In this document: positions 3,688-19,337 of the stretch, piece after piece | Position numbering within the stretch: position 1 is the stretch's first letter | Layout: every line of letters begins with the position of its first letter | Source of the DNA: a virus | IMG/VR virus record: IMGVR_UViG_3300050821_005220 | Span: 1-20,154 of that record | Reading direction: 5' to 3' (one strand) | DNA length: 20,154 nt | Made by a program: the position numbers and the translations under genes | Notes under the pieces: generated by a model | Databases searched by the model: none | What the model saw: only the letters and a program-made list of their open reading frames with translations | What the model was told of the DNA's origin: nothing

Positions 3688-4161
3688 ATGAAGAAGGCTG
3701 TCAATTTTGTCGCCCTCGTCGCTGTTTCTTTAGTTCTTGTGGCCCAATACAGCAGCTTTGTCCAAGCTCGTCTAATCGGTACTAACCCGCTTGGTGTTAA
3801 CGCTGACGTTTGGTGTACTGGTGGTCGTATTCGCGGCAACACAACGCTATCGGATATGGAAATGTGTCAAGATGCGTCCAACAATCTTGTCCCGACGACT
3901 ACTCTTAGGGGTAGCATCGGCCTTTCTACTGAGGCGTGGGTTTCCGTTAATGCTTCCCAAATTATCCCGACGGATACGTCCTCTAGTCGCCTACATCTTC
4001 CCGTGATCAGCACGACTACGGGAATTACCCTTGCGGTTACTCAGGGCGATCTATACGCGATGCAGGATGCTAGTGGGAAGATTTATACAACTTGCTTCGC
4101 TAGCGGTACTGTTACCAATGGCCTAGTTCTTTCTTCGGCTCCTGCGACGGCTTGCCGGTAG
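3688..4161 (+). CDS. Exported small protein with signal peptide, unknown function
   Basis: A 157-residue protein with a textbook Sec signal peptide: lysines at 2-3, a hydrophobic core at about 4-19, and a likely cleavage after FVQA at residue 27. The mature part is about 130 residues, beta-rich, with four cysteines. The gene has one of the strongest ribosome binding sites in the window (AGGGAGG, seven bases before ATG), so it is probably abundant. It opens a run of six consecutive signal-peptide genes. No family was recognised. A small tail, fibre-base or surface-decoration protein is possible from context. The cysteine number is consistent with two disulfides in an oxidising compartment. Confidence 0.6.
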   Translation: MKKAVNFVALVAVSLVLVAQYSSFVQARLIGTNPLGVNADVWCTGGRIRGNTTLSDMEMCQDASNNLVPTTTLRGSIGLSTEAWVSVNASQIIPTDTSSSRLHLPVISTTTGITLAVTQGDLYAMQDASGKIYTTCFASGTVTNGLVLSSAPATACR

Positions 4162-4170
4162 TAATAGAAA

Positions 4171-4644
4171 ATGAAAATGCCTAACGCTAGACGGCTAGGG
4201 TTATATTTCTCCTTAGTCGTCATTGCGGGCGTGGTGGTCCTATCTCCACGATTCGCCAACGCATTAGGTACGAAGGAATGGCAAGACATCAGAACTTATC
4301 GAAGCGAGGGGCGCGGGATTCTTCCATTCAATGTTAGCTGTAGCTCAACAGCGTGGACTGTTGTTCAATCCTCAGATGCCATACGTCGGTCTATCTTGAT
4401 GGAGTCCATCCCGGAAAACACCTTGAATGTTTGTATATCCACTTTAACGCTAATTGGCGATCCGTGCGGACAAGGAACTCCTGGAATAAAACTAACTAAT
4501 GGATCATCCCTTACCGATTATACGACCATTCAATGGAACTGCCGTGCCGTTCCTTCGGCAACGCTAAGCTCTAGCACAGTGAGCGGTTATTCAACGCGCG
4601 ATAAAGGCGATTTTGGGGCCATCTATGCGCCTAGCCTTCAGTAG
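4171..4644 (+). CDS. Exported small protein with signal peptide, unknown function
   Basis: A 157-residue protein starting nine bases after the previous stop. The N-terminus has a basic region (K2, R7, R8), a hydrophobic core at about 11-24 and a probable cleavage after FANA at residue 31. The mature region is Ser/Thr-rich with four cysteines and a pattern suggesting one beta-sandwich domain. It resembles the preceding gene in size, signal peptide and cysteine number, although no clear alignment is visible; the two could be distant paralogues. The ribosome binding site is weak, so translation may depend on coupling. The last 20 bases overlap the start of the tail fibre gene. No family recognised. 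Confidence 0.55.
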   Translation: MKMPNARRLGLYFSLVVIAGVVVLSPRFANALGTKEWQDIRTYRSEGRGILPFNVSCSSTAWTVVQSSDAIRRSILMESIPENTLNVCISTLTLIGDPCGQGTPGIKLTNGSSLTDYTTIQWNCRAVPSATLSSSTVSGYSTRDKGDFGAIYAPSLQ

Positions 4645-6487
4645 TGCTGTTGCTGTAATATTCCTGGCCGCTAATGCGATTGCCGGGGACCTGAGACCGG
4701 CCAATACTAGTAGCGGTGGCGGGGGCGGCGGCGGTGCTCCCACTGGGCCAGCCGGTGGCTCTCTGGCTGGATCATATCCAAATCCAACATTAAATCCAGT
4801 CAATACCGATCTTTCTACTGTTACCATTATCCAAAATAGTGCTGGAATAATTACCTACCCGAACGCCCCATTGCAGATTTTTGGAAATGCCAATGGATAT
4901 TTACAATCTGTTCTTCAAAATCTTTCAAATGGGACGTCTGCCTCCGGTGATCAAGTCATAACCGACGATCTTGGAGGCGACACTTCATTTTATTTAAATT
5001 TGGGAATCAACAGTTCAAAATTTAGCCAATCTGGATTCTCGGCGCAAAAATCTTCTGACGGATACGTTGTTACGTCTGATTCAAACTTGCATTTGTGGGC
5101 CGATACGAATGGAGCCCTTAACGGTGGAATTGGACATGTTATCGTTGGGTCTAGCATCCCCAACAGCGGAAATACAGCCCTTGATATATCTTCTACCGGA
5201 TTCGTTGTTTCTCCCCCTGCGACTTTCAATTCCTCTGTGACTTTTAATTCCAATGTCGGCGTAGGAGCTAGCAATGGCTCTGCATTTACTCTCAAGGTTT
5301 CTTCTGGCGGGGCTATTTTTGACGGCTACACCACGCAGAACTTCCAAGTCGGACAAAGCAGCTTTATCATCGTCGCGGCCAGCGGCAATACCGGCATTGG
5401 CACCGCCACGCCTCAGCTTACGCTCGATGTCAACGGCGGGGCTCAATTCGGCTCGGGAGTAAATAAAAGCACGTTCACGAGTACCGGACAATTACAACTT
5501 GTTAGTGGTTCGACAGTGACGGTCCCCGGAAACGTGTATTACAGCACGTCTCCGACCTCAAATATTCCAGCAGCTATATTCAAGAGTGCTGGAAGCGTGG
5601 CATTTGGTTCTGATCCGGGAGTTTGTGCCGGAACTGTTTTCGTCGGGCAAGGAGCCTTTAGACAACCCAATGCTGGCTGTAGCTCAACGACGAATCCACT
5701 TGTTGTACATACAAGCGGCGGCGGCGCTATCACCATCACCGACAACTCTAACGCCAGAGAAAACAACTTTGGAACTGATGCCAACGCAGCATACAATGGA
5801 CCAAACGTTGGCTCCATACCAAATGAGATGCGCTGGGGCACAAACAATGTAGGTCTACGACTTGGTAGCACCAATGGCGGCGTTTTCATCGGCAGCACGC
5901 ATACTGACCCCACGGCAACGCTCGTTGTTCGATCTACCGGGGCCACGGCTGGAACTGCGGTGATTGACCTTCAGTCCAGCAGCAATGCGTCCTTGTTCAA
6001 CATAACCAATTCTAGCTTCGCTACCCTAAACGCATCCCTGAACGTGACCGGCAGCACATTCGCGGCGCAGTTCACCCCCAACCTCAGCTCCTTCACCGCG
6101 ACCGGCGCCCTCAGCGGAACCTTCACCAACACCGCATTAGGACCCTGCATCGCTGGCTCCACGATCACGTTGAGCGTTCTCTCCGGAAACTCCCTAATCA
6201 TGACCTCGCTGCATGGAACAATCAGCGTAGCCAGCCTGGCGGCGGTCATCGGAGTGGGCCTCATTGTCGACGGAGGATTCGTTGACGGAGAGACCAACTC
6301 CAAGGGTCTTACCGCCCCCCAGGAGCCCGTCTCTACCGATGGAACGAACGTGAGTTTTAGCGAGGTTCTATCTGGCCTACCGGTTGGCAGTCATAACATC
6401 TGCTTATCTCCGTTCGTGAGCGCCAACACCGGAACCATCGATTCGACGAACTCGGTCATGAAGCTGCAAGCCTATACGCTACCGTGA
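4625..6487 (+). CDS. Tail fibre-like protein with signal peptide
   Basis: A 620-residue protein. I prefer the ATG at 4625 because it puts a clean signal peptide at the N-terminus (MRLAFSSAVAVIFLAANAIA, cleavage about residue 20); a TTG at 4613 is possible. A seven-glycine linker (31-37) is followed by GPAGGSLAGSYPNPTLNP, a motif common near the N-terminus of phage fibres. The middle has repeated beta segments such as TFNSSVTFNS and GIGTATPQLTLDVNGG near residues 255-275, typical of trimeric fibre shafts. The C-terminal 130 residues form a separate beta domain with VDGGFVDG and VGSHNICL, resembling the C-terminus of the protein at 17321. The mature part has four cysteines. Expected role is host-receptor binding. 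Base composition changes near 6030, suggesting an exchanged tip. Confidence 0.7.
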   Translation: MRLAFSSAVAVIFLAANAIAGDLRPANTSSGGGGGGGAPTGPAGGSLAGSYPNPTLNPVNTDLSTVTIIQNSAGIITYPNAPLQIFGNANGYLQSVLQNLSNGTSASGDQVITDDLGGDTSFYLNLGINSSKFSQSGFSAQKSSDGYVVTSDSNLHLWADTNGALNGGIGHVIVGSSIPNSGNTALDISSTGFVVSPPATFNSSVTFNSNVGVGASNGSAFTLKVSSGGAIFDGYTTQNFQVGQSSFIIVAASGNTGIGTATPQLTLDVNGGAQFGSGVNKSTFTSTGQLQLVSGSTVTVPGNVYYSTSPTSNIPAAIFKSAGSVAFGSDPGVCAGTVFVGQGAFRQPNAGCSSTTNPLVVHTSGGGAITITDNSNARENNFGTDANAAYNGPNVGSIPNEMRWGTNNVGLRLGSTNGGVFIGSTHTDPTATLVVRSTGATAGTAVIDLQSSSNASLFNITNSSFATLNASLNVTGSTFAAQFTPNLSSFTATGALSGTFTNTALGPCIAGSTITLSVLSGNSLIMTSLHGTISVASLAAVIGVGLIVDGGFVDGETNSKGLTAPQEPVSTDGTNVSFSEVLSGLPVGSHNICLSPFVSANTGTIDSTNSVMKLQAYTLP

Positions 6488-6499
6488 CACCACGATTAG

Positions 6500-8422
6500 A
6501 TGAAAAAAACAGCCGCAATAGCGATATTGTGGGCCATGTCGTCATCGCCTAGTTTCGCTTCCGATCCTCTCGGAGCGCAGTTCCTTCCGGCCTATAGTGC
6601 CACTTGCGGAACGAGCTACATATGGATGACTGATTCCCTGCAAAAGGTCCGACAGGATTCCGGTTCTCCTGGAACTGTTTGCGGAATGACTATAAATGCT
6701 TTCCCGAATGAAATTACAGATATTCAGGTTCATATGCAAGCCCCGGCAGGAGGTATTCCAAGCTTCAAGGTCGATCTAGGTAGCATAACTAACTCTCAAA
6801 CTGGGACGGTCATATCGTCAACAACATTTGACATTATTACCTATCGAGAATCGTACATGAACGTCTCTACTAAAACATGTACTCAAGCGACCTGCTATAA
6901 CGCGACTGGACTTTATCCGGACGCTCTAATCCCGACAATTGATCCTTATTGGAAGCAGACAACGAATGCTTTTCCATTTTCTGTAAAAGCTAGTAGCAAT
7001 CAAAGTGCATGGATTGATATTCATATTCCAACTTCGGCCCCATCCGGGTATTATTTTGGAACCATAGTAGTTTCTAGTGCTTCTACAGTATTGGCCAATC
7101 TTCCATTGGTTGTGGGCGTTTGGCAATGGCCTAGCGGGATGGCTACTCCATATATGCCATCGACCGCAACGCTAAGAACGATCATACCTACCGGCTATGC
7201 CGCTCTCTGCATCCCTCAGTACGGTGGTCCGACGAATAAAGGCTGCGCCGCATATACAAATGCCGCTTTCGATGACGATGGAGCCGGTCTGACTATGTTG
7301 GATGCTTTGACTTTCGGCTTAGACCATCGCGTTACGATCTTTATCCCTTACCCCCCTATTAGCAGCGGATTCGGTGCTTTTGAAACGAGATGGGAACCTG
7401 TGCTTAAAGGAACGCAAACAAGAACGCCTCAAATATTGCCGGGAGCTAGACCTACTACTACCCAATCGCAATTTGGAAGTTATAATGTCACCTCAGCTTC
7501 AAATTGGACCACAGAAGCCTCTAATCGTGGGTGGAATTATAACTCGTCAATGCCATTCGACTATACCTGCGACGAACCGCCAAACGGATGCTCCTACTCG
7601 CAATTTATCGCGAGCGCCACAACGATGCACTCCGCTTCGCCGCAGATGGCTACGCTCATAACTTCAGAGCTAAATCTATTAAACCTAAATGGAGCGCAAA
7701 GTTCCGTCGATATCATCACGCCTATAATGAATGCTCTTGATCCCATCGGCGGCACACTACAACGTCCTATTTATGACGTTTGGAAGGCCACGCATACTGG
7801 CCCAACCGCGCAAATTTTTACCTACATCGATTGCGTCCAAACTGGAACATGCTCCAACGGAACAACTGGAACAGATCAGTCCAAGACGTGGCCCAATCGT
7901 GATATTGATGGATTACCAGTGGCAAATAGGGCTACCGAGTGGCTAGAATCATATCGTTTAAAAACAGATGGGGAACTTTATTTTACTTCCACATATTGTC
8001 TTACGCAAGCTCCCGGGGCCTGTGGTCTTGCCGGGTCTACGGATTCATGGAAAAGCGTTTACTATTCGGGAGGATGGGGCGACGGGACGATCATGTACCC
8101 AGGAACCACGGCCCAGGTTGCCGTTTCTACACCTATTTGGATTCCGTCTATGCGTCTGAAATATATGCGCGATGGTGTCCAAGACTTTGAATATTTGAAT
8201 GCAGCAAATACTAATGGCCTGAGCGCAACGGCAACGGCACAATCTCAAGTATGGATTACAAGTTCGACGATGTTTAATATCGACCCCGCGAACAATGGAA
8301 TTTATACCGGCACTATCAATTCTGCCAGAACTGCATTAGGGAATGCCATTCATGCTTTAAGCTTTCCAGCGGCGGCGGTGCCAAGAGCAACGGGTACAGT
8401 TTATTTTATGAGGAATCAGTAA
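6500..8422 (+). CDS. GH123/DUF4091-like exported glycoside hydrolase
   Basis: A 640-residue protein with a signal peptide (MKKTAAIAIL..., cleavage after SFA at residue 20). Three parts match the GH123/DUF4091 family: an N-terminal beta domain with LYPDALIP near 138 and SAWIDIHIPTSAPSGYYFGTI near 165-187; a barrel-like region with DEP at Asp358-Glu359-Pro360, where GH123 enzymes have a catalytic Asp-Glu pair acting by substrate-assisted hydrolysis; and a C-terminal region with GWGDGTIMYPG and MRLKYMRDGVQDFEYLNA ending near 568. Known GH123 enzymes remove beta-linked N-acetylgalactosamine. Here the natural role is probably degradation of a host surface glycan by the virion or a released enzyme. 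There are 12 cysteines, many in close pairs. Its place between fibre and adaptor genes supports a virion-associated depolymerase. Substrate is unproven. Confidence 0.65.
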   Translation: MKKTAAIAILWAMSSSPSFASDPLGAQFLPAYSATCGTSYIWMTDSLQKVRQDSGSPGTVCGMTINAFPNEITDIQVHMQAPAGGIPSFKVDLGSITNSQTGTVISSTTFDIITYRESYMNVSTKTCTQATCYNATGLYPDALIPTIDPYWKQTTNAFPFSVKASSNQSAWIDIHIPTSAPSGYYFGTIVVSSASTVLANLPLVVGVWQWPSGMATPYMPSTATLRTIIPTGYAALCIPQYGGPTNKGCAAYTNAAFDDDGAGLTMLDALTFGLDHRVTIFIPYPPISSGFGAFETRWEPVLKGTQTRTPQILPGARPTTTQSQFGSYNVTSASNWTTEASNRGWNYNSSMPFDYTCDEPPNGCSYSQFIASATTMHSASPQMATLITSELNLLNLNGAQSSVDIITPIMNALDPIGGTLQRPIYDVWKATHTGPTAQIFTYIDCVQTGTCSNGTTGTDQSKTWPNRDIDGLPVANRATEWLESYRLKTDGELYFTSTYCLTQAPGACGLAGSTDSWKSVYYSGGWGDGTIMYPGTTAQVAVSTPIWIPSMRLKYMRDGVQDFEYLNAANTNGLSATATAQSQVWITSSTMFNIDPANNGIYTGTINSARTALGNAIHALSFPAAAVPRATGTVYFMRNQ

Positions 8423-9126
8423 TGAAAAAGTCAATTATTTCTATTTCCCTATTTTTTATTTCAGTTTCGTCACTTGCCCAAGTCACTCTTTCAGGTCTTG
8501 AAACGGAAGCAAGGACACTCGCGCTGGATGGAAGCAGCGCCGCTCGACAGCGTTTTACAAACTCGCAGATCGATACTTGGCTGAATGAGGGGCAGAGGGA
8601 AGCCATAATTCAGACGCGCTGCTTAAGACAATCTTTGATATTCAATCTCGTTCCTGGTACAACTTTCTATTCTTTGCCGTCTAATTATCTGGCTATGGAG
8701 CGCGTTACTGTTGGATCAAAATATATTCAGGAGCTAAGTCCTGGCGGCTTAGATGGTCGTTCGAGGGGATGGGAGTCGGCAAGCGGATATCCGACTTATT
8801 ATTGGGTCAATTTCTCAAGCCCGACTCTGCTTGGATTCGCTCCCTGGCCAGCCACAGCCACGGATACCGACACAGTCAAGGCCGAATTCGACATCCAAAC
8901 GACGGACATGGTCAATTCAACCGATAACCCATTCCGTGGGGTTGTAAAAATGAACGATTACGGACACGCTTTGGCCTATTATGCTGCCGCAATTATGTCT
9001 CAGATTCAAGGCATACAACCGCGCTCGGATTTATTTCAGAAAATGTATGCAACAACTATCGCTGGAATGATGAAACGATGTCTTGAACGGCCTAATTATC
9101 TTCCATCGGCTACGGGAACTCCATAA
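8422..9126 (+). CDS. Head-tail adaptor-like protein with signal peptide
   Basis: A 234-residue protein whose ATG overlaps the previous stop by one base, with GAGGA upstream. After a signal peptide (MKKSIISISLFFISVSSLA, residue 19) the sequence has the layout of podovirus adaptors that sit under the portal: a helix with RFTNSQIDTWLNEGQREAII, a beta segment with VPGTTFYSLPSNYLAMERV, a central loop, WVNFSSPTLLGFAPWP, and a C-terminal helical region. The combination of ..N.GQRE.. and ..GT..Y.LP.. is the main evidence. It directly precedes the nozzle-like gene, the usual order. The mature protein has two cysteines (C67 and C220). A signal peptide on an adaptor is very unusual, since adaptors dock on the portal of cytoplasmic heads. 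Confidence 0.6.
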   Translation: MKKSIISISLFFISVSSLAQVTLSGLETEARTLALDGSSAARQRFTNSQIDTWLNEGQREAIIQTRCLRQSLIFNLVPGTTFYSLPSNYLAMERVTVGSKYIQELSPGGLDGRSRGWESASGYPTYYWVNFSSPTLLGFAPWPATATDTDTVKAEFDIQTTDMVNSTDNPFRGVVKMNDYGHALAYYAAAIMSQIQGIQPRSDLFQKMYATTIAGMMKRCLERPNYLPSATGTP

Positions 9127-9129
9127 ATT

Positions 9130-11940
9130 ATGTATCAACGTATCCTAATTAATGTCAAATTAGGATGTGCTTTGTTATTTCTTATTACGTTAGCCAATGC
9201 TGAGAACCCCTCCCCATATATAACGCTCGACCACTTTGAAAAATGCGGATTCATAAGCCGTTTCTCGCCAAATAAAATTGATCCAGAATGCTTCCAGCAG
9301 ATTAACAACGCCTACCTTGACCAAGATTATTCAATTCTTCGTCGGAATGGCTATGCCCCGTACAATTCAACGCCATGTACTGGTTCGCAACCTATTCGCG
9401 GAATGTGGTCTTTCTTCGGAACGGATGGAAGTCAATATCTTATCATGCAGTCGTCGCAATCCATGTTTTCAAGCAAGGGCGACGGACTTTGCACCCCTAT
9501 TACTGGCCTCAATAATCTTTCCCCAACGGCGCAGATGTCTTGCGTCCAAACCCTCGGATATCTTTGGTGTACGGACGGAATCGACACGCCATTCCGGACC
9601 AATGTCACGTCTACCGATACTGTTTCCCAGGCCCCTCTGGGAAAATATATCGGAGCATTCAGAAACCGGGTTTTGATGGGAAGTGTCAGCGGTACTCTCA
9701 CCAATGTTTATTTGTCCGGTGAGCTTAACGGGCTTGATTGGACCCTCCCGACGGTCAGCTATTCTACTTCTCCGGCAATCCTTCGAATAAACGGAATCAA
9801 CGATGGTCTTTCGATATCCTGCATGATGGGAGAGTTCCAGAACAACTACTATATCGGAAGGAATTATGACCTCTATGCCCTGGCTGGATACGATCTTCGG
9901 GACTTTGCTATTCGTAAAGTTTCCGAGCAAATTGGATGTATGGATAACAACAGCGTACAAGAGGTTAATAATTCTCTAAATTGGCTTTCTCATCGCGGAG
10001 TAGAAAGTCTATCTGGAACTCAAATTACTTGGATGAGTTACCCAATCGACCCGACGATTAAGACGATCATAACGGCGGCGGGAAATTCTCAGTCTCAATT
10101 ATTTACGACACAGGCAGACTGGCAGAATGGCAATTTGACAGCCTCTGGGGCTGGGGCTCCCATGTCGGCAACAATAAGTCCTGGCGATGTTGTCCCGTCT
10201 TCTTGGTCGGTTATTGAGAATTCCGGCGCTCAATGGTCACTGGGAACATTGACCAATGTTTCTACATCAGCCACATCTATATCTCTTTCCATAGCCACAA
10301 ATAATGTATCTGGAGGGACATTCCCTCCCGGTAATTCTGATTGGATATGTAATAATAATGCGCCAACTCTTAATGCATGTTCTACGGGAATAAATGCACC
10401 GCTTTCCGGTTTTTCTTCTGGCGGTTATCTTTGTGCTGAAAATTCAGATACCGGAGTCCTGACTATACTAGGAGTAGATAGCGGGAATAACACTCTTTTT
10501 ACAACAAATGTAGAGCCATTATCGGTTACAACGGTAACAATAAATATTGTGAATTTGAGCACGCCTACTGTGTACCTTAAATTTTTTATATCTGATGGTG
10601 CCAATACTGTTAGTCTAAAACAATCAGCACCAACAACAAATGGATTCAACTATTCAGTAATAGTTTCATCTACCTGGAGCAAATCATGTAATGGTTGCGC
10701 CGCGATTGGATCAGGCCCTGCATCGTGTAGTGTTTGGGAGTTTACTAACGCTCTTATATCCTCATATTCCGCAACTGGCGTATTCACATCAACGTCCTAC
10801 ACTACTTCATTGAGTACGCCAACCTGGGGAGATTTTTTAGTATCGCAAACCACTTCTTCTTCATTGGCCGCGACATTTACTACACAGGTTTCTAGTGATG
10901 GAATAACTTTTGATTCGGCTCTTGTTCCAGCTATTGGGCAAAAGATAACTTCGGCGCAAAAGAAATTCATTAAATATACGGCGTCTCTTTCTACGACGAT
11001 ATCGACCAGGACACCGACAATAACGAGTGTCGGTCTTGCGGCAGAAACAACCGGTTATTATATAACGCCATGCGTAACAGCTACTGGAAATACAGCCTGG
11101 GGCGTGCTGGCCGTAAATGGTGTCACGAATGGCGGCTCATTTACTTTTTCAATGAGTACAAGTGCCATTTCTTGCGCTCAGGTAATCGATCCGAAAAACG
11201 CGAATTGGACTACGGTAGCGGCGAACTCAATCCCGAGCATAACGGATTCTAGTTATACCGCTGTTCGTGTCTTGTTCGGTATCGATGTGGCGACTCAGGT
11301 TCCAACGCTCAACGATATAACGGTTCAATGGAACGCAGGCGCGTCAAGGCCTCCCGTGGCAAGCGCGAACTATCAGAATCGCTACTATATGTTCTATACC
11401 ACTTCGACAGCGGCAGGAGCAGCGAATGATCACGCCGTAGTCTTAGACCAAAATCAAAAATGGGTTTTGTTTGATGATCAGAGGGCCGCGAGCGCCGATC
11501 TTTATTTAAATTCCCTCTATATCGGAGACTCGCAGGCAACCGGAACAGCCTACTTGTTCGATAGCGGAAGCTCTGACAACAATGGTTCATACAATTTTTC
11601 CTTCACTACGCCGGACTTGGATGGGGGAGACCCGGTCAGTCCTAAGCAGTTTTCTAGTGTCTACATGTTCATTGGCGCTCCGAGCGTTACTACGCAAGGA
11701 AGTACGCTTTCGTGCAATTACACCATCAACGGTTCGACGGTTTCATATAGTCTTGGAAGTGTATCTCTAAATGAAGCACCCGAGCAGAGCGGCTATTTCG
11801 TCGCCGAACTTCCATTCCCAGTCAACCAACCAGTTACGGCAAACTGGATAAATCTTTCGTGTTCGAACAATGGTAACGTGGGGCCGATAAGAATATACGG
11901 CATTCGCATGACTTACCGTCCCAACGTCTGGCCGGAATAG
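9130..11940 (+). CDS. Tail nozzle-like beta-propeller protein with signal peptide
   Basis: A 936-residue protein with a signal peptide (core 9-20, cleavage after LANA at residue 24). The first third resembles podovirus nozzle/stabilisation proteins (P22 gp10 and T7 gp12 type): GMWSFFGTDGSQYLIM, then NRVLMGSVSGTLTNVYLSG with ..LDW near 178-204, and EQIGCMDNNSV followed by LSHRGVESLSG. The C-terminus resumes propeller-like features (KWVLFDDQ near 777, SLYIGDSQATGTAYLFDSG, then SFTTPDLDGGDPVSPKQFSSV). A region of about 430 residues between them looks like inserted beta-sandwich domains and is more AT-rich. The mature protein has 18 cysteines. Role: distal tail tube closing the channel and joining fibres. 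The family normally has no signal peptide. Its start lacks a clear ribosome binding site, suggesting coupling. Confidence 0.65.
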   Translation: MYQRILINVKLGCALLFLITLANAENPSPYITLDHFEKCGFISRFSPNKIDPECFQQINNAYLDQDYSILRRNGYAPYNSTPCTGSQPIRGMWSFFGTDGSQYLIMQSSQSMFSSKGDGLCTPITGLNNLSPTAQMSCVQTLGYLWCTDGIDTPFRTNVTSTDTVSQAPLGKYIGAFRNRVLMGSVSGTLTNVYLSGELNGLDWTLPTVSYSTSPAILRINGINDGLSISCMMGEFQNNYYIGRNYDLYALAGYDLRDFAIRKVSEQIGCMDNNSVQEVNNSLNWLSHRGVESLSGTQITWMSYPIDPTIKTIITAAGNSQSQLFTTQADWQNGNLTASGAGAPMSATISPGDVVPSSWSVIENSGAQWSLGTLTNVSTSATSISLSIATNNVSGGTFPPGNSDWICNNNAPTLNACSTGINAPLSGFSSGGYLCAENSDTGVLTILGVDSGNNTLFTTNVEPLSVTTVTINIVNLSTPTVYLKFFISDGANTVSLKQSAPTTNGFNYSVIVSSTWSKSCNGCAAIGSGPASCSVWEFTNALISSYSATGVFTSTSYTTSLSTPTWGDFLVSQTTSSSLAATFTTQVSSDGITFDSALVPAIGQKITSAQKKFIKYTASLSTTISTRTPTITSVGLAAETTGYYITPCVTATGNTAWGVLAVNGVTNGGSFTFSMSTSAISCAQVIDPKNANWTTVAANSIPSITDSSYTAVRVLFGIDVATQVPTLNDITVQWNAGASRPPVASANYQNRYYMFYTTSTAAGAANDHAVVLDQNQKWVLFDDQRAASADLYLNSLYIGDSQATGTAYLFDSGSSDNNGSYNFSFTTPDLDGGDPVSPKQFSSVYMFIGAPSVTTQGSTLSCNYTINGSTVSYSLGSVSLNEAPEQSGYFVAELPFPVNQPVTANWINLSCSNNGNVGPIRIYGIRMTYRPNVWPE

Positions 11941-11948
11941 GTCTCATC

Positions 11949-11957
11949 TGATATACT
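11949..11957 (+). promoter_or_regulatory. Extended -10 promoter for ejection-protein genes
   Basis: TGATATACT: the TG at 11949-11950 one base before TATACT at 11952-11957 is an extended -10 element, which can work without a good -35. The -35 position (11929-11934, TGGCCG) is poor. The -10 hexamer is identical to that of the capsid promoter, and the next 40 bases are homologous to its leader. Predicted start is near 11964. It would give the ejection-protein genes their own transcript. Confidence 0.65.
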
Positions 11958-11961
11958 TATA

Positions 11962-11999
11962 GTTGCCGCTGTTTCACCCACCTAGAATCCCAGCAAAGC
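11962..11999 (+). repeat. Leader element copy C (5'UTR of ejection-protein transcript)
   Basis: GTTGCCGCTGTTT then the core CCTAGAATCCCAGCAAAGC (11981-11999). It matches copy A in sequence, order and distance from the -10 box. A frame open from a TTG at 11963 would translate through this element. Because the element is non-coding in the other two places, the downstream ATG at 12026 with GGGAGA is the better gene start. Confidence 0.7.
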
Positions 12000-12025
12000 G
12001 TCTTGCCAATCCGTGGGAGAACTCT

Positions 12026-12697
12026 ATGCCTGTTTCGGCAACAGCGATGACGCCTACTCAATTTTCAGGAATGCAAGGCCCTGGTGCATCGGGAATGCTT
12101 CCTTCCTTCAACCTTCCGACGGTGGGTGGTCAAACTACCGATCCCAACTCCATACCTCTCAATCAGCAAGGCGTCATGCAGATGCTTTCCCAGTCTCCGG
12201 GGAGCTTAACATCTACGCTTGGTCCTCTTTTGCAACAGATTTTCGGTCAACAGAACGGGATCATGCAGGGTCTTTTCCAACAGCAGGGGAATCAGGGCGC
12301 GGCTCAGGCTCAGTCCGACGCGCAGGCTCGCGGCCTTACCGGATCATCCATCGAGGGCGCGAACATGGGCCAGGCCCGCGCATCAGCGAATCAAGGATAC
12401 GACCAGTATCTATCCCAGGCTCTCAATCAACTTGTCTCGCAGTATTCCGGCGCGGCCCAATTCGATATTGGAAATCAGAATCAATACAACCAAAACCTCG
12501 CCCAGGGCGCGGGTCAGGCTTACGCGCAGAACGTACAGCAGCAGCAATTCCAGCAGCAGCTACAGGCTGGATTGCAAGCAGCGGGGCAGAATTCAAACTC
12601 TCAAATGATGGCTGGAATTTTTGGCGGCGGCGGCTCCGCTCTAGGTGGTCTATTCCAGGGGGCAGGTGCGGCTGGCGGTTTCGGTAAATTTTTCTAG
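12026..12697 (+). CDS. Probable DNA-ejection protein 1, Gln/Ala/Gly-rich
   Basis: A 223-residue protein. I chose the ATG at 12026 because GGGAGA lies just upstream and the longer alternative from TTG 11963 runs through a conserved non-coding leader. The sequence is rich in Gln, Ala, Gly and Ser with no cysteines, and helical QAQSDAQARG and YDQYLSQALNQLVSQY segments followed by a Gly-rich C-terminus (IFGGGGSALGGLFQGAGAAGG). Its position after the nozzle gene, first of three consecutive cysteine-free proteins, matches the ejection-protein (pilot, internal virion) cassette of P22-like podoviruses. Such proteins leave the capsid ahead of the DNA and form a conduit across the envelope. The Gly-rich C-terminus could be membrane-active. 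No direct homology is claimed. Confidence 0.55.
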   Translation: MPVSATAMTPTQFSGMQGPGASGMLPSFNLPTVGGQTTDPNSIPLNQQGVMQMLSQSPGSLTSTLGPLLQQIFGQQNGIMQGLFQQQGNQGAAQAQSDAQARGLTGSSIEGANMGQARASANQGYDQYLSQALNQLVSQYSGAAQFDIGNQNQYNQNLAQGAGQAYAQNVQQQQFQQQLQAGLQAAGQNSNSQMMAGIFGGGGSALGGLFQGAGAAGGFGKFF

Positions 12698-12706
12698 GAA
12701 TAATCT

Positions 12707-13912
12707 ATGCCTGATTTCTTGCCATCATTACAGCTTCCTCAGGGTATGGCCGAAGCTTTAATCCGTCTTAAAAGCGAGGCGGGGGCCCCGTGGGCGCAAT
12801 TGGCGCAGGGCTTGGGCCAGACTGCTGGTGGAACAGCCCAGGTATTGGGGCAGCAGCAGCAGCAGCGAGCAGCCATTGGACGCCAAAGCCTTACGCCAGA
12901 GCAAATAAACGCCCTCATGACTCAGGCCACGGGAAGCAATATGGCTTCGCGCGGCTCTGGTCAAGCATCTGTTCAAATCGGACAGAATCCGATTAATCGG
13001 CAGACATTCCCGAATGGCGTTCAGCCACAGGGGCAAGAACTTTTGCAGAAGGTTCTGGCGGCGCGTGAAGCAACAGCGAGAGCCATGGGAGTTCAGGGAT
13101 TAAAGAACGAAGGGACGGCAGAAAAAGACCATACAGAAGCGACTGACGAGATGTTAAAGAACTATCCCAAAATAAAACAAATGGGATTCGAGGCTGGGGA
13201 TATGGTCCCCAATCGTTTTCTGCAAGATCAGGAAAAGCCTGCTTCGGCATCGGCGCAGAACCAACTTACTCCCGAGGAAGACGCGGCTTTAGTAAAAGCA
13301 TCCCTAAGAGAAAAAGACCCTATCCCAAATTCTCTAATTAAGAGTCGTGGGGCGGGCGCTAAAATCCTGGCTCAGTCTCTTTTGAAAGACCCGAATTATA
13401 CTCCCCAGAAATCAGAAATTGACCTAGCCGCAGGAAAGGCGGGGACTTCGGCGGCAGCTAAATTAGAATCGGCTGGACCGCCTCAAGTATTGGCTCGCTA
13501 TGCCAACTCCACCAAGGAAGTTTTAAAAGTTCTTCAGCAGCAATCGGCAGAATACCCGCGATTTGGAGAACAGTTCCTTAATGCTCCATACAATAAATTA
13601 AAAGAGCAGAGTTCTCCCGAAGCTCTTAAATTTAAACAAAGCATTGCTGACGTTCGCGGACATATAGCCGCAGTATTGGCAAAGGGGTATGCTCCACAGC
13701 GCGAGCAGATTGAGGAGGCGCAGAGGTACATTCCTGACACTATTACTCCGAAGCAATTGACAGAGGATATCCCATTCCTAAACAAACTGATTGATATTCA
13801 AGTTCGGGGCATGATGACGGCTGTTAAACCTGGGGATTCTGCATCAAAAGACCCGTCCAGCATGACTGACGCCGAACTAGCCGAAGCTGCAAAGAAATGG
13901 AAGCCTAAATAA
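12707..13912 (+). CDS. Probable DNA-ejection protein 2 (internal virion protein)
   Basis: A 401-residue, cysteine-free, mostly helical protein. The ribosome binding site AGGA is embedded in the previous gene's stop (TAGGA), coupling the two. The N-terminal 100 residues are Gln/Ala-rich with a run of five Gln. The C-terminal half, from about residue 240, is predicted helical: a segment on the pattern KSLIPQ..LARYANSTKEVLKVL is followed by a region containing FLNAPYNKL, a conserved stretch IADVRGHIAAVLAKGYAP, and a helix ending in IDIQVRGMMTAV. That layout recalls a family of phage structural proteins found next to tail genes in uncultured podoviruses. It probably resides inside the capsid and is ejected with the genome. 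Its stop overlaps the next ATG (TAATG). Confidence 0.55.
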   Translation: MPDFLPSLQLPQGMAEALIRLKSEAGAPWAQLAQGLGQTAGGTAQVLGQQQQQRAAIGRQSLTPEQINALMTQATGSNMASRGSGQASVQIGQNPINRQTFPNGVQPQGQELLQKVLAAREATARAMGVQGLKNEGTAEKDHTEATDEMLKNYPKIKQMGFEAGDMVPNRFLQDQEKPASASAQNQLTPEEDAALVKASLREKDPIPNSLIKSRGAGAKILAQSLLKDPNYTPQKSEIDLAAGKAGTSAAAKLESAGPPQVLARYANSTKEVLKVLQQQSAEYPRFGEQFLNAPYNKLKEQSSPEALKFKQSIADVRGHIAAVLAKGYAPQREQIEEAQRYIPDTITPKQLTEDIPFLNKLIDIQVRGMMTAVKPGDSASKDPSSMTDAELAEAAKKWKPK

Positions 13913-15954
13913 TGGCAGAAGAAAATCCCTATCTCGCAGAAATACAAAAACGTTCCCATGGCTCTAATCCATATGCGGCAGAATTGCAGAAGAGACAGTT
14001 ATCCAGCGGATTAAAGCCTACATCCATGTCCCAAGGCTCTCTTATTCCTCATGACGCATCGCTGACGGAAGCCCCCCCCATGACGCGGATGATGATGTCG
14101 CTTCCAAAACCAATTGAAGGCGCGGTTGATAATCTAGGAAAAATAGCCGGAGTGGCCGACGAGTTTGGGGGAAATCCCTATGGCGTGGAAACCGAGCTTC
14201 CCAAGGCCGCTATTGGGCTATCCATGCGCGAATCGCCTACGGCAATGTCCATGAACCTGGGAGGGAGGCAGGTCCCATTAACTGCGGCAGAAGTTACTAA
14301 GTCTCCCGTATATTCGGCCATCGAATATTTAATGTCTAAAATCCCTTTTTCATCAGGGAAAATGAATCAGTTTAACGATGTCCGCAATGCCGCCCTTGGG
14401 GAGTATCGGGATTCCATTCTTGCATCTTCCGGCAAGAAATCGGAGATGGAAACAGCGGGGGCGCAGGCCAAAGAAACAATCCAATCATTCCTCGACAAAA
14501 AGAACGCTAAAAGAGTTGCCGATCTATCAGAAAAACGAGGTTCAATTCTTCCATCGGGGATAGAACCCCCAATTGAGGCAGGCCAAGGATTGCAGGATAA
14601 GGTTGCGGCGGCAAAAGAATCGGCCAGGAAGGAATCATCTTCTCTCTACCTTGAAGCCGCCAAAAACATGCCGGATCAATTAAAGGTTTTCCCAGCCGAT
14701 CAATTGCGGGCAAAGGCTAAAGAGATTTTAGAAACAAAGGGCGGCTCCCCCAGTACGATTCCGTCCAATGTGGAGTCGCACTTGAAAGAAATACTCAATT
14801 CTCCCCAGGGTCTAAGCTGGGACAAAATGCACTCTTTGCAGTCTGATTATGGCGGTTTAGCGCAAAAAGAAAAGATCGCAGGAAAAGGATTCCAGAGCCC
14901 CGAGGGTGCTGTTTGGAATGACCTTAAACGTGCGGCCCGTGGCGATATGGAGAAAGCGGCCAATCGAGTCGGCGGGGAATTCCTAGAGAAATACAATTTC
15001 GCAAAATCATTTTATAAAGACTATCGCACGAATTTCGATAATGATGCGATTAGAAAATTCATTCGCGCCAAGCCGGATCAGGTTTTTGACTCTTTCATTC
15101 GCCGAGGCTCCATAGACGATATAAACAAATTGAGCAAGATAATAAGCCCGCAGGATATGGAACCAATGCGGAAATTAATGATTCAGGATATCGTCGGAGG
15201 GGCCAAAGACGCGGTTCCATCTTCTACGGAGATTGCCAGGAAGCTCGATCAGTATAAGTACAAGATGGGCGCGGTGCTTAAGCCGGAGCAAATAGCCCAG
15301 GTAAAAAAGTTTGCTAAGACCGGCGATCTTCCACAATTTGTACAAAGCGAACTAGAAAAGAATATAGCAGCTATTGCTAAAAGAACGCCTACGGCAATAA
15401 GCGATGCGGTCATGCGCGGCGATCCTACAATTTCTAGGACTATAAAAAAGATTGTTGGGGAAAGAGGGTGGCAACCGTATCGAAGAGAATTCATGGAAAA
15501 GATTATAGGTGAGTCTGGCGCCGACCTTCTTACGTCAAATAAGATGTCAAAAACCATGTCTAGTATTCCTCCCGAATTCAGAAGGCTTTTCGTTTCGGAC
15601 GCTGATGTTAAGGGTATGGAACAAGTAATAGACGCGAAGAAAAAGTTTGAAACAGCTACAGCATCATTTGGGAACGCAAGCGGGACGGCTAAAAATATAA
15701 TTTTTTGGGAGATGGGCAAGGCTGTTTTTACGAATCCGACTACGGGAGTACCAATGATCCTGTTTCCGGGCCAGATGGCAAAATTCTACTTATCACCCGT
15801 TGGCCGAAGGCTACTAATCGACGGACTTACGGCCACAGAGGTTAATGCGGCGCAGAGGTTCGCCAGAATGAGCGCATATGCCTTGAATGCTAAGCGCGAA
15901 TATCACGATGAGGAACGCATAAGGCTTGGTCTTAAACCGGATTTCATGAAATGA
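13912..15954 (+). CDS. Probable DNA-ejection protein 3 (large internal virion protein)
   Basis: A 680-residue cysteine-free protein and the largest of the three ejection-type genes. It starts with a short tandem motif, NPYLAEIQKR then NPYAAELQKR, spaced 13 residues apart. The remainder is helical and charged. A central region (GAVWNDLKRAARGDMEKAA, then EKYNFAKSFYKDYRTNFDN and IRKFIRAKPDQVFDSFI) follows a pattern common in large ejection proteins of uncultured podoviruses. A moderately hydrophobic segment near the C-terminus (IFWEMGKAVF through GVPMILFPGQ) could contact membrane. No transglycosylase or protease motif was seen. Expected role is to help carry DNA across the cell envelope. The stop TGA overlaps the ATG of a 29-codon gene by four bases. 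Confidence 0.55.
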   Translation: MAEENPYLAEIQKRSHGSNPYAAELQKRQLSSGLKPTSMSQGSLIPHDASLTEAPPMTRMMMSLPKPIEGAVDNLGKIAGVADEFGGNPYGVETELPKAAIGLSMRESPTAMSMNLGGRQVPLTAAEVTKSPVYSAIEYLMSKIPFSSGKMNQFNDVRNAALGEYRDSILASSGKKSEMETAGAQAKETIQSFLDKKNAKRVADLSEKRGSILPSGIEPPIEAGQGLQDKVAAAKESARKESSSLYLEAAKNMPDQLKVFPADQLRAKAKEILETKGGSPSTIPSNVESHLKEILNSPQGLSWDKMHSLQSDYGGLAQKEKIAGKGFQSPEGAVWNDLKRAARGDMEKAANRVGGEFLEKYNFAKSFYKDYRTNFDNDAIRKFIRAKPDQVFDSFIRRGSIDDINKLSKIISPQDMEPMRKLMIQDIVGGAKDAVPSSTEIARKLDQYKYKMGAVLKPEQIAQVKKFAKTGDLPQFVQSELEKNIAAIAKRTPTAISDAVMRGDPTISRTIKKIVGERGWQPYRREFMEKIIGESGADLLTSNKMSKTMSSIPPEFRRLFVSDADVKGMEQVIDAKKKFETATASFGNASGTAKNIIFWEMGKAVFTNPTTGVPMILFPGQMAKFYLSPVGRRLLIDGLTATEVNAAQRFARMSAYALNAKREYHDEERIRLGLKPDFMK

Positions 15955-16040
15955 CCTGTCCCCGCCCCATAGACCGTCCATCAATTGAAATCGAAGACGA
16001 GGACGAAGGCTATTTGCATGATGATGGGCAGGATGACTAG
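15951..16040 (+). CDS. Possible 29-residue acidic peptide gene
   Basis: A 29-codon frame that exactly fills the space between two larger genes. Its ATG overlaps the preceding stop in an ATGA arrangement, and its TAG is followed at once by the GTG of the ATP-grasp gene. Eleven of 29 residues are Asp or Glu, concentrated in EIEDEDEG and DDGQDD; there is one Cys (residue 3) and two Arg. No independent ribosome binding site is obvious. Translation would depend on coupling, and the frame could simply be a coupling device for the next gene. A more interesting option is that it is a substrate or partner of the adjacent ATP-grasp enzyme. Peptide identity is not established. Confidence 0.4.
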   Translation: MTCPRPIDRPSIEIEDEDEGYLHDDGQDD

Positions 16041-17324
16041 GTGAAGATCGCATACCTGAGCCACAATGGCGACTCCTTGGATATCGCCTTTCGGATGGCC
16101 CTTGATAACAACAAGGTCACTGTCTTCGTCGAAGACCCGCAAGATGCCGATAATTTCGATGGTCTGATTCCGAAGGCTAAGACCTGGCAAGAGGCCGTAA
16201 ACGGGAAAGACTTGCTTGTTTTCGACGATAACAAGATGAGTCCGACGATTTGGAATTCTTGCCATAAGAGTATTCCCTGCTTCGGGGGCTCTCCGTTTGG
16301 CGCACGACTAGAAAAAGATCGTGCATTCGCGCATTCCCTGATGTCTCAGGCTGGAATACCGACGATAGAGTCAATCAGCTTTAAGACACTGAAAGAAGTA
16401 ATCCCCCACCTGAAAACTCATAAGGTGCCGCACGTCATAAAGCCTCAAGGCAAGCAGGTAAAGTCCCATCATCTGATTGTCGGCAAGGACCCCGAAAACT
16501 CAGACGCGATTTCTCAGGTAGAGCGATTGATTGAGCAGGGCCTAATCGTCGAAGCGGTCGAGGTCGAGGAAAAGAAAAACGGCGTCGAAACCGGGCTATC
16601 CATTTTCTTTAACGGGATGGAGCGCGTTGGCCCCGTCAATGTCAATTTTGAGCATAAGCGATCCCACGATGGAGAACGGGGCTTCCTTACTGGCGAAATG
16701 GGAACACTCATTAAGTATTGCGAGGACCCGGACCTCCCACTTTACAAAGATACGTTAGAAAAGATGATTCCCATTCTTAGGGCCTACGATTATCGGGGCC
16801 AAATCGACCTGAATATGATCGTGAACGATGACGGGGCCTTCCCGTTAGAATTTACGCCACGTCCCGGTAAACCATCCATTTTCATTGAAGATGAAGTCCA
16901 CATTACGCCATGGGGCGAGCTGATGCATGGATGTGCTACTGGTAAGAATATTAATTTCCAGTGCCATTACGACTGGGCGATAGGTGTCCAGCTCTGCGCC
17001 TTCGGTTTCCCATTTCGAGAACAGGCCGAATGCTCCAAGGGTCTTGTTATTGACGGGCTCGATGAGCATACGTTAGATCATCTACACCCGATTGAGGCAA
17101 AGCTAAATAAGAATGGGAAATTTGTCGTCGATTCCGGCGTCGGCGAGATTCTGTGTGCTACTGGCCGTGGCGACACAATTGACCGTGCTAAAATCGAAGC
17201 GTATCGCAATCTTGGGCGCGTAACGGTTCCGAACAGCTTTTATCGACACGATATAAGCGATAAGATTTCGGCTTACGAACTAGACCGTCTAAACATCCTC
17301 CCGCTCGAAGAATCGGTCGCATGA
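16041..17324 (+). CDS. PurD-like ATP-grasp ligase with altered substrate sites
   Basis: A 427-residue protein starting at GTG, with AGGA upstream. Its order and several motifs follow phosphoribosylamine-glycine ligase (PurD): GARLEKDRAFAHSLMSQAGIPT near 87-108; VIKP with likely ATP-binding Lys134; EHKRSHDGERG at 204-214 and TGEMGT at 217-222, compared with DHKR..DGD.G.NTGGMG in PurD; a metal-binding EFT at 270-272 where PurD has EFN; and a C-terminal domain with RGDTIDRAKIEAY and FYRHDIS. The glycine-rich N-terminal GGREHA-type loop and the RFGDPE motif of true PurD are replaced (NGDSLDIAF; RPGKPS). The fold and ATP use are likely retained, but purine synthesis is doubtful. An amide ligase acting on a peptide, virion protein or other metabolite is more likely. 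It has no signal peptide. Confidence 0.7.
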   Translation: MKIAYLSHNGDSLDIAFRMALDNNKVTVFVEDPQDADNFDGLIPKAKTWQEAVNGKDLLVFDDNKMSPTIWNSCHKSIPCFGGSPFGARLEKDRAFAHSLMSQAGIPTIESISFKTLKEVIPHLKTHKVPHVIKPQGKQVKSHHLIVGKDPENSDAISQVERLIEQGLIVEAVEVEEKKNGVETGLSIFFNGMERVGPVNVNFEHKRSHDGERGFLTGEMGTLIKYCEDPDLPLYKDTLEKMIPILRAYDYRGQIDLNMIVNDDGAFPLEFTPRPGKPSIFIEDEVHITPWGELMHGCATGKNINFQCHYDWAIGVQLCAFGFPFREQAECSKGLVIDGLDEHTLDHLHPIEAKLNKNGKFVVDSGVGEILCATGRGDTIDRAKIEAYRNLGRVTVPNSFYRHDISDKISAYELDRLNILPLEESVA

Positions 17325-18088
17325 AAATGGCAATCCTGGCTATGCTTCTAGCTCAGGCGGCCCACGCGGATACGCCAGCGCCATACTATCCGCGTCAGTT
17401 TAATACCGGACAGTCAATGGGCGCAATAAACGAGAACCTGCTTGATGTGACAGGACGCAACAAAGATAACTTGGTCCCTATTGTCGGAGATCAAGCCTGC
17501 GCTCCTGGTCAGGCATTGACCGGTGCAACTCAAAAAGGAGGTTATATTTTTGGCGGTTCTTGCACAACGATTGACGGTTCAACCAATACTGTTTTTAACT
17601 CGTCTGTTACTTTTAATGGTGGGGTTTTTGGAACGATAATGCCGTCCTCGTTTACCTTTGTAAAACCTGGGACTTTGGTTAACCATTCGCCCGGAGGATT
17701 CGGCGATGTTGCCATAGCCACTGTGACGTTAACGACCAATGGCGGTCATGATTTGGAAATTGTTGTTTCAGGTAGCGCGGGAGTCGCTGCGGATACTACG
17801 GCGAATGTGCTATGGGGAGTCCTTGTTGATGGGGTCTTCGCATTTGGTCTTACAAGCGTGAATCCTGCTCAGAATTGCGCCACGGGATCGAACTCCGTTT
17901 GGGGTAACTGTTCGGGAACGTATACAATACAAGCAGGTAATGCCCCACTAGCTGGCGTCCACAATTTCGCTTTAGTTATTTGGGACCCCCATTCCGCTTC
18001 AACAATAACTTATCCAGCAAGTGGCGTAGCTTATAATGGGGGAACACCCGCTGGAAAATTGGGATTTAGAGTGACAGAGAGACGTTGA
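17321..18088 (+). CDS. Exported fibre-tip-like protein with signal peptide
   Basis: A 255-residue protein whose ATG overlaps the previous stop (ATGA). It has a short signal peptide (MKMAILAMLLAQAAHA, residue 16). The middle contains FNSSVTFNGGVFG, closely resembling the FNSSVTFNSNVGVG segment of the tail fibre at 4625. The C-terminal 130 residues form a compact beta domain with GVLVDGVFAFGLTS and LAGVHNFALVIWD, matching the fibre's VDGGFVDGET and VGSHNICL. It therefore looks like a small fibre or tip built on the same receptor-binding domain. The mature protein has four cysteines. Its separation from the main tail block by the ejection genes suggests duplication or an accessory, exchangeable receptor-binding protein. 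Confidence 0.6.
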   Translation: MKMAILAMLLAQAAHADTPAPYYPRQFNTGQSMGAINENLLDVTGRNKDNLVPIVGDQACAPGQALTGATQKGGYIFGGSCTTIDGSTNTVFNSSVTFNGGVFGTIMPSSFTFVKPGTLVNHSPGGFGDVAIATVTLTTNGGHDLEIVVSGSAGVAADTTANVLWGVLVDGVFAFGLTSVNPAQNCATGSNSVWGNCSGTYTIQAGNAPLAGVHNFALVIWDPHSASTITYPASGVAYNGGTPAGKLGFRVTERR

Positions 18089-18117
18089 TAAAAAACATGC
18101 TCAGGAGGAAAACTACA

Positions 18118-18594
18118 ATGAAATACTGGTTACTTGGGATTGCGCTTATTTGTTTTGCAACATCGGCAAATGCTACTCCGTATTTCCGTCTCTTGGATAT
18201 TTCCCATCCGCAGCCCGTCCTAGGAGCCTTGATCGATCCTTCGGCGCCCGGGAATACTGAGGCGGCCAGCTTGATTCCCATCCTCACGCATAGTCCAAAG
18301 GATGGCTGTTTACTTCCAAGCGTTGTTTGCGAGGAATGGACGCCTCTTGCACTTGGGGCGAGCATGAATGCGGGGAAGATTACTCTTGACGTAGCTCCGC
18401 TTGCCAACGTTCTTCCATGGTTTCAAAAGGCAGCTATAGCCGTTACCCCTGCGAAATGGCAAGGCCTTATCGGTGTACTGAGTCCGTCACAAGATAAGAG
18501 CGTGACATTTTCTGCTGGTCCAGTCTGGCAGTATCGACAACTGACCAATAAAGGTTATTTCCGTGTTTTCACTGGCCTTGCTCTGCATTTCTAG
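18118..18594 (+). CDS. Exported protein with outer-membrane-like C-terminus
   Basis: A 158-residue protein. I chose the ATG at 18118 because AGGAGG lies nine bases upstream (18103-18108) and a signal peptide follows (MKYWLLGIALICFATSANA, residue 19); an earlier in-frame start at 18085 would bury the signal. The mature part has two cysteines eight residues apart (CLLPSVVC). The C-terminus alternates polar and hydrophobic residues and ends in Phe (YFRVFTGLALHF), as in the final strand of outer-membrane beta barrels recognised by the Bam complex. At about 139 mature residues it could make a small barrel or a periplasmic protein. Possible roles are modification of the host surface, superinfection exclusion or a virion part. 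No family recognised. Confidence 0.5.
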   Translation: MKYWLLGIALICFATSANATPYFRLLDISHPQPVLGALIDPSAPGNTEAASLIPILTHSPKDGCLLPSVVCEEWTPLALGASMNAGKITLDVAPLANVLPWFQKAAIAVTPAKWQGLIGVLSPSQDKSVTFSAGPVWQYRQLTNKGYFRVFTGLALHF

Positions 18595-18603
18595 GAATAA
18601 TTC

Positions 18604-18855
18604 GTGGGCCTCGAAGACAAGCTAGACCAAGAAATAAAGGAAGCCTCGGAATTCCGGGGTGAAATGCGTCAGTATGCCAAGAATACGACGGCATACATCG
18701 GCGCGGTCAGCGACAATCTAAAGGCTCATATTGACGATCATAAGCAAGACTCAAAAGAAGAAAAGAAGGCCGGGCGCGAGTGGGTTGGAATTGTTGCCCC
18801 GCTCATTATCGGAGTCGGAACACTTTGCATAGAATTATTCATGCACAAAAAATGA
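18604..18855 (+). CDS. Holin-like tail-anchored membrane protein
   Basis: An 83-residue protein beginning with GTG; the ribosome binding site AGGA overlaps the previous TAG stop. Residues 1-58 are charged and helical, probably a coiled coil. Residues 60-80 (WVGIVAPLIIGVGTLCIELFM) form a single membrane segment, followed by HKK. A soluble coiled coil with one C-terminal membrane anchor is the plan of XhlA-type lysis proteins and some holins. Its stop overlaps the amidase ATG (ATGA), as in many holin-endolysin pairs. The role would be to permeabilise or anchor at the inner membrane at the end of infection. A spanin or tail-anchored regulator is possible. Confidence 0.55.
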   Translation: MGLEDKLDQEIKEASEFRGEMRQYAKNTTAYIGAVSDNLKAHIDDHKQDSKEEKKAGREWVGIVAPLIIGVGTLCIELFMHKK

Positions 18856-19337
18856 CGATGACGATAAGACCTACTAGCACTTGGTTTCCAAGTCCGAATT
18901 ACCGCACGGGACGATCAAAGCCGATTACTTGCGTTGTAATTCACGCTACAGCCACGGCGGCGATTGAGAGTCCGCGCGACTGGCTTTCCAATCCCGCTTC
19001 AAAAGTATCGGCTCATTATCTGATAGGAACAGATGGCGCTATATACCACATGGTCCATGAATCAGACACAGCATGGCATGCCGGAGAGTCGGAATGGCGC
19101 GGAGAAAAGAATGTAAATGACTTCGGTATCGGTATTGAGCTTGTCAATTCCAATGACGGCAAGATGGCCTATCCAGAAGCGCAGTTGATATCATGCGCAG
19201 CCCTTGTCAAGGATATTTGCTCTGATTACAAGATAGAATTTGAAAATGTGATAGGACATCTAGATATAGCCCCCGGTCGCAAGACCGACCCGGCAGGATT
19301 CCCATGGGACGATTTCCGGGCTCGATTGAATGTCTGA
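18852..19337 (+). CDS. Endolysin, N-acetylmuramoyl-L-alanine amidase (Amidase_2)
   Basis: A 161-residue protein starting at the ATG that overlaps the upstream stop. It is a zinc amidase of the AmpD/Amidase_2/PGRP family, which cuts the bond between muramic acid and L-Ala in peptidoglycan. Visible signatures are VVIHATAT with zinc ligand His31; SAHYLIGTDGAIYHMV; DTAWHAGES; GIGIELVNS; and GHLDIAPGRKTDPAGFPW with zinc ligands His136 and Asp146 and the catalytic Lys144. It is a single catalytic domain with no binding domain and no signal peptide, so it needs a holin to reach the wall. The length is typical of small endolysins of phages infecting diderm hosts. Confidence 0.9.
   Translation: MTMTIRPTSTWFPSPNYRTGRSKPITCVVIHATATAAIESPRDWLSNPASKVSAHYLIGTDGAIYHMVHESDTAWHAGESEWRGEKNVNDFGIGIELVNSNDGKMAYPEAQLISCAALVKDICSDYKIEFENVIGHLDIAPGRKTDPAGFPWDDFRARLNV

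Follow-up and report, generated by a model that had tools for sequence, protein, structure and literature searches.

Why would a short-tailed phage place signal peptides on the proteins of its tail? In the textbook account, tail completion is a cytoplasmic step that seals the packaged head. The locus considered here, a 20,154-base IMG/VR virus fragment (the window) in which 20 genes were scored, was predicted to depart from this account, because eight of its genes, including those for a head-tail adaptor and a nozzle, appeared to start with Sec-type leaders. The leader genes and the scaffold-like, capsid, ejection-like and endolysin genes are on the plus strand. The first part of the gene order is scaffold-like protein (53), small four-cysteine protein (710), small protein (1256), capsid (2202) and small protein (3126). 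The second part comprises six genes with signal peptides (3688-11940), three ejection-like genes (11963-15954) and an ATP-grasp gene (16041), and two more signal-peptide genes (17321 and 18118) precede the lysis region.

N-termini were evaluated with a rule score combining n-region charge, hydrophobic core and cleavage site. For calibration it was applied to 136 E. coli K-12 proteins; those that reached 5.5 were all exported proteins, lipoproteins or proteins of the inner membrane (ybhI, nhaA, hokC). Leaders are present at all eight of the predicted starts (3688, 4171, 4625, 6500, 8422, 9130, 17321 and 18118), with scores of 5.7-7.6, and the run of six consecutive leader genes (3688-11940) is as originally described; the remaining 12 genes gave no score or 0.16. 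Every one of the eight N-termini shows the Sec/SPase I pattern: a basic n-region, a hydrophobic core free of charges and a site of A-x-A type. The chance per N-terminus is about 1-2.6% (0.9% of random internal stretches reach 5.5, and 2.6% of shuffled versions of the eight N-termini). Five reference phages have a structural module of this kind, and none of their 82 module ORFs scores 5.0 or more, compared with 8 of 20 in the window (Fisher 6e-7). A chance origin of the leaders is ruled out by the shuffled and random-stretch rates together with the zero count in the reference phages.

The first two genes of the run encode small tail-module proteins of 157 aa each that are predicted to be exported. 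The first (3688..4161; signal peptide 3688-3768, MKKAVNFVALVAVSLVLVAQYSSFVQA/RL, score 6.8) has an SD motif (AGGGAGGA) upstream and a homologue in L002, the nearest relative (ORF 7857-8984). The second (4171..4644; signal peptide 4171-4263, ..SPRFANA/LG, score 7.5) has its homologue at L002 8996-9439. They are followed by a predicted exported tail-fibre-like protein of 620 aa (4625..6487; signal peptide 4625-4678, MRLAFSSAVAVIFLAANA/IA, score 7.6), which has a Gly-rich start and repeats as read from the sequence, and by a predicted exported protein of 640 aa (6500..8422; signal peptide 6500-6559, MKKTAAIAILWAMSSSPSFA/SD, score 5.7). The latter has a weak match to the GH123 N-domain (PF22680, 24.1 bits, under the cut-off of 27), from which a tail spike that binds or cuts glycans is a possibility. 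Near the other end of the window are a predicted exported tail-fibre-like protein of 255 aa (17321..18088; signal peptide 17321-17368, MKMAILAMLLAQAAHA/DT, score 7.4), similar by eye to a 510-aa signal-peptide protein at L012 2381-3913, and a predicted exported protein of 158 aa (18118..18594; signal peptide 18118-18174, MKYWLLGIALICFATSANA/TP, score 7.6; SD AGGAGG) that is homologous to L002 9447-9887. This last protein ends in Phe (..FTGLALHF), which resembles the terminal Phe of outer-membrane barrels. Its L002 homologue lies between capsid and adaptor, and the window copy lies near the endolysin.

The fifth gene of the run (8422..9126, 234 aa; signal peptide 8422-8478, MKKSIISISLFFISVSSLA/QV) was called a head-tail adaptor, and both family and fold agree. 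The protein matches Pfam PF24175 (SU10_adaptor) with 69.7 bits against a cut-off of 27 (E 5.9e-19, residues 22-214), so that the match begins directly past the leader. In an AF2 model (pLDDT 85), residues 1-20 are at about 54 and most of the remainder is high, and the top PDB match is the SU10 adaptor 7z47_B (Foldseek E 3.9e-9, TM ~0.64). In the window and its relatives the gene follows that for the capsid and precedes that for the nozzle within a portal-MCP-adaptor-nozzle module, and the L002 portal belongs to the SU10_portal family (E 2.3e-9). PF24175 proteins usually start at the mature N-terminus, which is not a defining feature of the family, and the clade adaptors depart from this leaderless state by carrying a leader of about 16-32 residues ahead of the domain. 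When the clade adaptor profile is aligned to the GP4 adaptor, profile position 23 falls on chain residue 4; the cultured homologue thus begins at the predicted mature start.

The adjacent gene (9130..11940, 936 aa; signal peptide 9130-9201, MYQRILINVKLGCALLFLITLANA/EN, score 7.6) encodes the protein thought to be a beta-propeller tail nozzle, an assignment that structure comparison upholds. Its AF2 model is of moderate confidence (pLDDT 70, leader below 50), and the top PDB matches in Foldseek are the podophage nozzles of Pa223, A4, VP1 and SU10, P22 gp10 and T7 gp12. The E values run from 1.8e-15 downward, with a partial fit (TM 0.2-0.46) of this moderate-confidence model. A sequence search of the PDB gave no match at E 1. 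The SU10 and T7 nozzles are themselves without detectable similarity to one another (PMC9509320).

Leaders are absent, by the same score, from the proteins for which the original prediction had noted none. These are the scaffold-like charged protein (53..709), whose role is assigned from position and composition only, the major capsid protein (2202..3095; PF25209, E 4.4e-11) and the three ejection-like proteins (11963, 12707 and 13912, spanning 11963..15954). Relatives have a similar, nearly Cys-free ejection-like trio after the nozzle region. The endolysin (18855..19337; Amidase_2, PF01510, E 1.6e-34) also has no signal peptide. Two other genes are of interest in their own right. A PurD/GARS-like ATP-grasp protein (16041-17324; GARS_A E 1.9e-13) sits amid the tail-fibre genes; Pfam confirms such a gene at L012 1134-2384, and look-alikes in a similar place were noted by eye at L016 327-1673, L017 16714-17928 and L140 2703-3881. 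The small four-Cys protein (710-1156) precedes the capsid gene in most clade members.

We then asked how widely the leaders occur, using about 100 loci from fragmentary viral contigs that were scanned for the capsid, the adaptor and the capsid subclade. As had been proposed, related metagenomic phages carry the same kind of N-termini. Adaptors from 21 non-redundant IMG/VR phages, 46% to ~25% identical to that of the window, have signal-peptide-like N-termini, and most of these leaders score above 5. A few weaker ones score 3.8-5, with G or S at -1, and the leader of the L087 adaptor has no basic residue. A probable frameshift within a run of T obscures the L055 adaptor start (~11690-11790), and the L023 nozzle start is also ambiguous. 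None of the 13 related adaptors outside the clade (e.g., MATITVSSLLTR...) has a leader; they begin at the mature start. In a tree of the mature adaptor domain, one branch (81/89, one change) separates sequences with signal peptides from those without. Similarly, 20 nozzles in the clade have signal-peptide-like N-termini (a few of them weak or ambiguous), whereas 15 related nozzles are leaderless. The capsid has a leader in 0 of the 85 loci with a capsid match. The leader stretches have diverged (25-27% mean identity) but keep the n/h/c pattern, A/G/S-x-A-type sites recur, and in the clade alignments a few residues separate the cleavage site from the start of the conserved domain; two of the alignments (A4 and A5) are too diverse for a pattern scan. 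Judged from these sequences, the leaders are conserved as a property, not as a sequence, across the 21 divergent phages.

Longer contigs (G004, G009 and G012) encode more fibre-like proteins with leaders past the ejection proteins, and replication genes almost never have them. The predicted exported set thus corresponds to the tail exterior, with adaptor, nozzle and fibres, and excludes portal, capsid, scaffold and ejection proteins. In phages with a related capsid, the second gene past the capsid encodes a ~460-aa protein with a hydrophobic start (..LALYWRTMDYYYLIDDIV; L060 11533-12918, L061 9061-10419 and L063 10280-11680), and post-capsid genes there are mostly leaderless. GroES-like (Cpn10) genes were found in G008, G011 and G013 above the cut-off and in G012 below it, and in 0 of 7 other contigs searched. 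A search for a close cultured phage by adaptor, nozzle, portal or capsid returned none.

Cysteine content offers a second line of evidence. Exported bacterial proteins prefer even numbers of cysteines (PMC7678975). The mature parts of the eight leader proteins of the window contain, in gene order, 4, 4, 4, 12, 2, 18, 4 and 2. Across the window's subclade the count is even in 25 of 26 Cys-bearing leader proteins, compared with 29 even and 25 odd among proteins without leaders, although the rows are related proteins and the resulting p-value is optimistic. Subclade II breaks the parity (6 even, 16 odd). Cysteine columns are gained or lost two at a time. The nozzle pairs are 62/77, 388/397 and 1069/1108 for one subclade and 528/559 with 1101/1123 for the other, and the adaptors of the window's subclade have the pair C67/C220. 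In the AF2 model of the window nozzle, C138 and C147 face each other on predicted hairpin strands (137-141 and 144-148). Density compared over all genes with and without signal peptides gave a mixed picture, and nozzle-only and parity tests were used instead; clade nozzles have 1.35 cysteines per 100 residues versus 0.76 in related leaderless nozzles (p 0.01). Even, co-varying cysteines would be an independent sign, for the window's subclade, of export to an oxidising compartment.

Taken together, the locus probably represents a clade of short-tailed phages with two-compartment morphogenesis, in which heads are cytoplasmic, tail parts are exported and the two are joined at lysis. In this scheme, capsid, portal, scaffold, ejection proteins and DNA would form the head in the cytoplasm, and adaptor, nozzle and fibres or spikes would be made as pre-proteins and exported by host Sec. 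Host signal peptidase I would cleave the leaders, and the tail parts would fold with disulfides outside the cytoplasm (for a diderm host, in the periplasm). Large holin lesions at the close of infection would let DNA-filled heads meet the ready tail parts, and adaptor and nozzle would then bind the portal. The fuller version, with disulfide-bonded tails waiting outside the inner membrane, joining at holin opening and no complete virion before lysis, we regard as somewhat better than an even bet.

The steps of this scheme differ in strength. Export of the tail set is well supported by the predicted leaders, with actual export and cleavage inferred. The original prediction of a tail built outside the cytoplasm and joined to heads when the membrane opens thus stands for export, through leaders, starts and cysteines; its second half is our own reading as well, and the place and time of joining are the most speculative part of the proposal. 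No phage-encoded SPase I was found in 11 contigs searched, so the host enzyme would serve, and since the endolysin has no leader, release should need a canonical holin. The holes made by the lambda holin have a mean size of 340 nm (PMC10865782), wide enough for heads to reach tail parts. The periplasm is a plausible site of tail building and presumes a diderm host; disulfides could instead form after release. MCP scans of genome contigs for a host returned only one Gammaproteobacteria MAG with a relative (L078), whose nozzle is leaderless, and 369 genomes of its class gave distant capsid matches only. In known podophages the packaged head is sealed by adaptor and nozzle. On the proposed route packaged heads would have to retain their DNA up to the time of lysis; a protein that seals them was not identified.

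This last demand would be avoided if heads used their portal to dock at the inner membrane and were joined there to the exported tail ahead of lysis, through a site or pore that gives portal and adaptor access to each other. The same export data fit such docking, and no unsealed, filled heads would await lysis. A membrane-pore or docking protein was not recognised in the module, but most module genes of the window have no known domain and the absence is therefore weak evidence. We consider pre-lysis docking unlikely, though worth keeping in mind.

The N-termini might also be uncleaved membrane anchors, holding tail assembly at the inner membrane. Hydrophobic N-termini can act in this way and some of the cores are strong, with a mean hydropathy over 19 residues as high as 2.1, but three of the eight are too weak (0.89, 0.96 and 1.41). 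The recurrence of A/G/S-x-A-type sites, with the conserved domain starting just after them, argues against retention, and the domain of a tethered adaptor would still be across the membrane from the portal. Anchoring is thus a doubtful explanation and a weaker one than export.

Another reading holds that the exported copies have a separate task, such as receptor blocking or superinfection exclusion, and that the virion is built from cytoplasmic copies translated from internal starts. Export of phage proteins to the periplasm does occur, T4 Spackle gp61.3 being an example (PMC7650644). However, in the adaptors of the window, L002, L004, L005, L006 and L071 there is no in-frame ATG, GTG or TTG from residue 8 to about 25 residues past the cleavage site, and several clade nozzles likewise lack an in-frame start behind the leader. 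In those genes the leader must be translated, which places the true starts upstream of the hydrophobic segment as predicted, and a leaderless second form from an internal start is impossible. A dual-start decoy model is rejected for these genes, and a second copy of adaptor or nozzle was not seen in the clade loci searched, leaving this reading very improbable. The missing internal starts, with the clade-wide alignments, also rule out the explanation that the starts were wrongly called.

Alternatively, the virion could keep the hydrophobic N-termini and use them during infection, for instance to insert into the host membrane; tail proteins do contact membranes on ejection. The segment occurs, however, on proteins unrelated in fold and size, small ones and fibres included, its cleavage motif is conserved, and related adaptors and nozzles outside the clade do without it, so that this role, too, is weaker than export and hardly to be expected. 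The least credible explanation of all is an artefact, whether from miscalled starts, from hydrophobicity arising by chance or from contamination, for although the score is rule-based and a few start codons are ambiguous, the leaders are conserved clade-wide in independent metagenome contigs and the controls gave 0 of 82.

If two-compartment assembly is correct, head and tail assembly would be split in space and virion completion would be tied to the timing of lysis. It would explain the disulfide-type cysteine pattern, and tail proteins could be produced in and purified from the periplasm. It would also raise the questions of how plugless filled heads retain DNA and which host envelope favours an export route. 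For annotation, signal peptides on phage structural genes should not be taken for host contamination.

The tails of P22 (gp4/gp10) and T7 (gp11/gp12) assemble on the portal in the cytoplasm. The comparison with them that had been suggested holds for the nozzle, whose model resembles P22 gp10 and T7 gp12 by fold, and weakly for the adaptor, which bears a faint resemblance to T7 gp11. The closer likeness is to the SU10-type machine (Kuravirus SU10: portal PF23899, adaptor gp11 PF24175, nozzle gp17), with which the window shares adaptor fold and family, nozzle fold class and the podophage order portal-scaffold-MCP-adaptor-nozzle, and to whose portal family the L002 portal belongs. The window clade differs in that its adaptor, nozzle and fibres bear signal peptides, and to our knowledge export has not been described for any SU10-type member. 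The nearest precedent for the leader is T4 Spackle, whose 22-residue signal has been shown experimentally to be cleaved in the periplasm (PMC7650644); it shares a Sec-type leader, but is an inhibitor of the gp5 lysozyme and not a structural tail part. Filamentous phages have coat proteins, M13 g3p among them, with signal sequences that are inserted by Sec/YidC (PMC8310372), but they are extruded as filaments without lysis and have no icosahedral head, portal or tail. In the open-licence literature searched, we found no report of a tailed phage with signal peptides on tail structural proteins, in keeping with the original statement, which knew of no described phage of this sort. The tail machine of these phages is therefore of a known kind, and the export of its parts is what is new.
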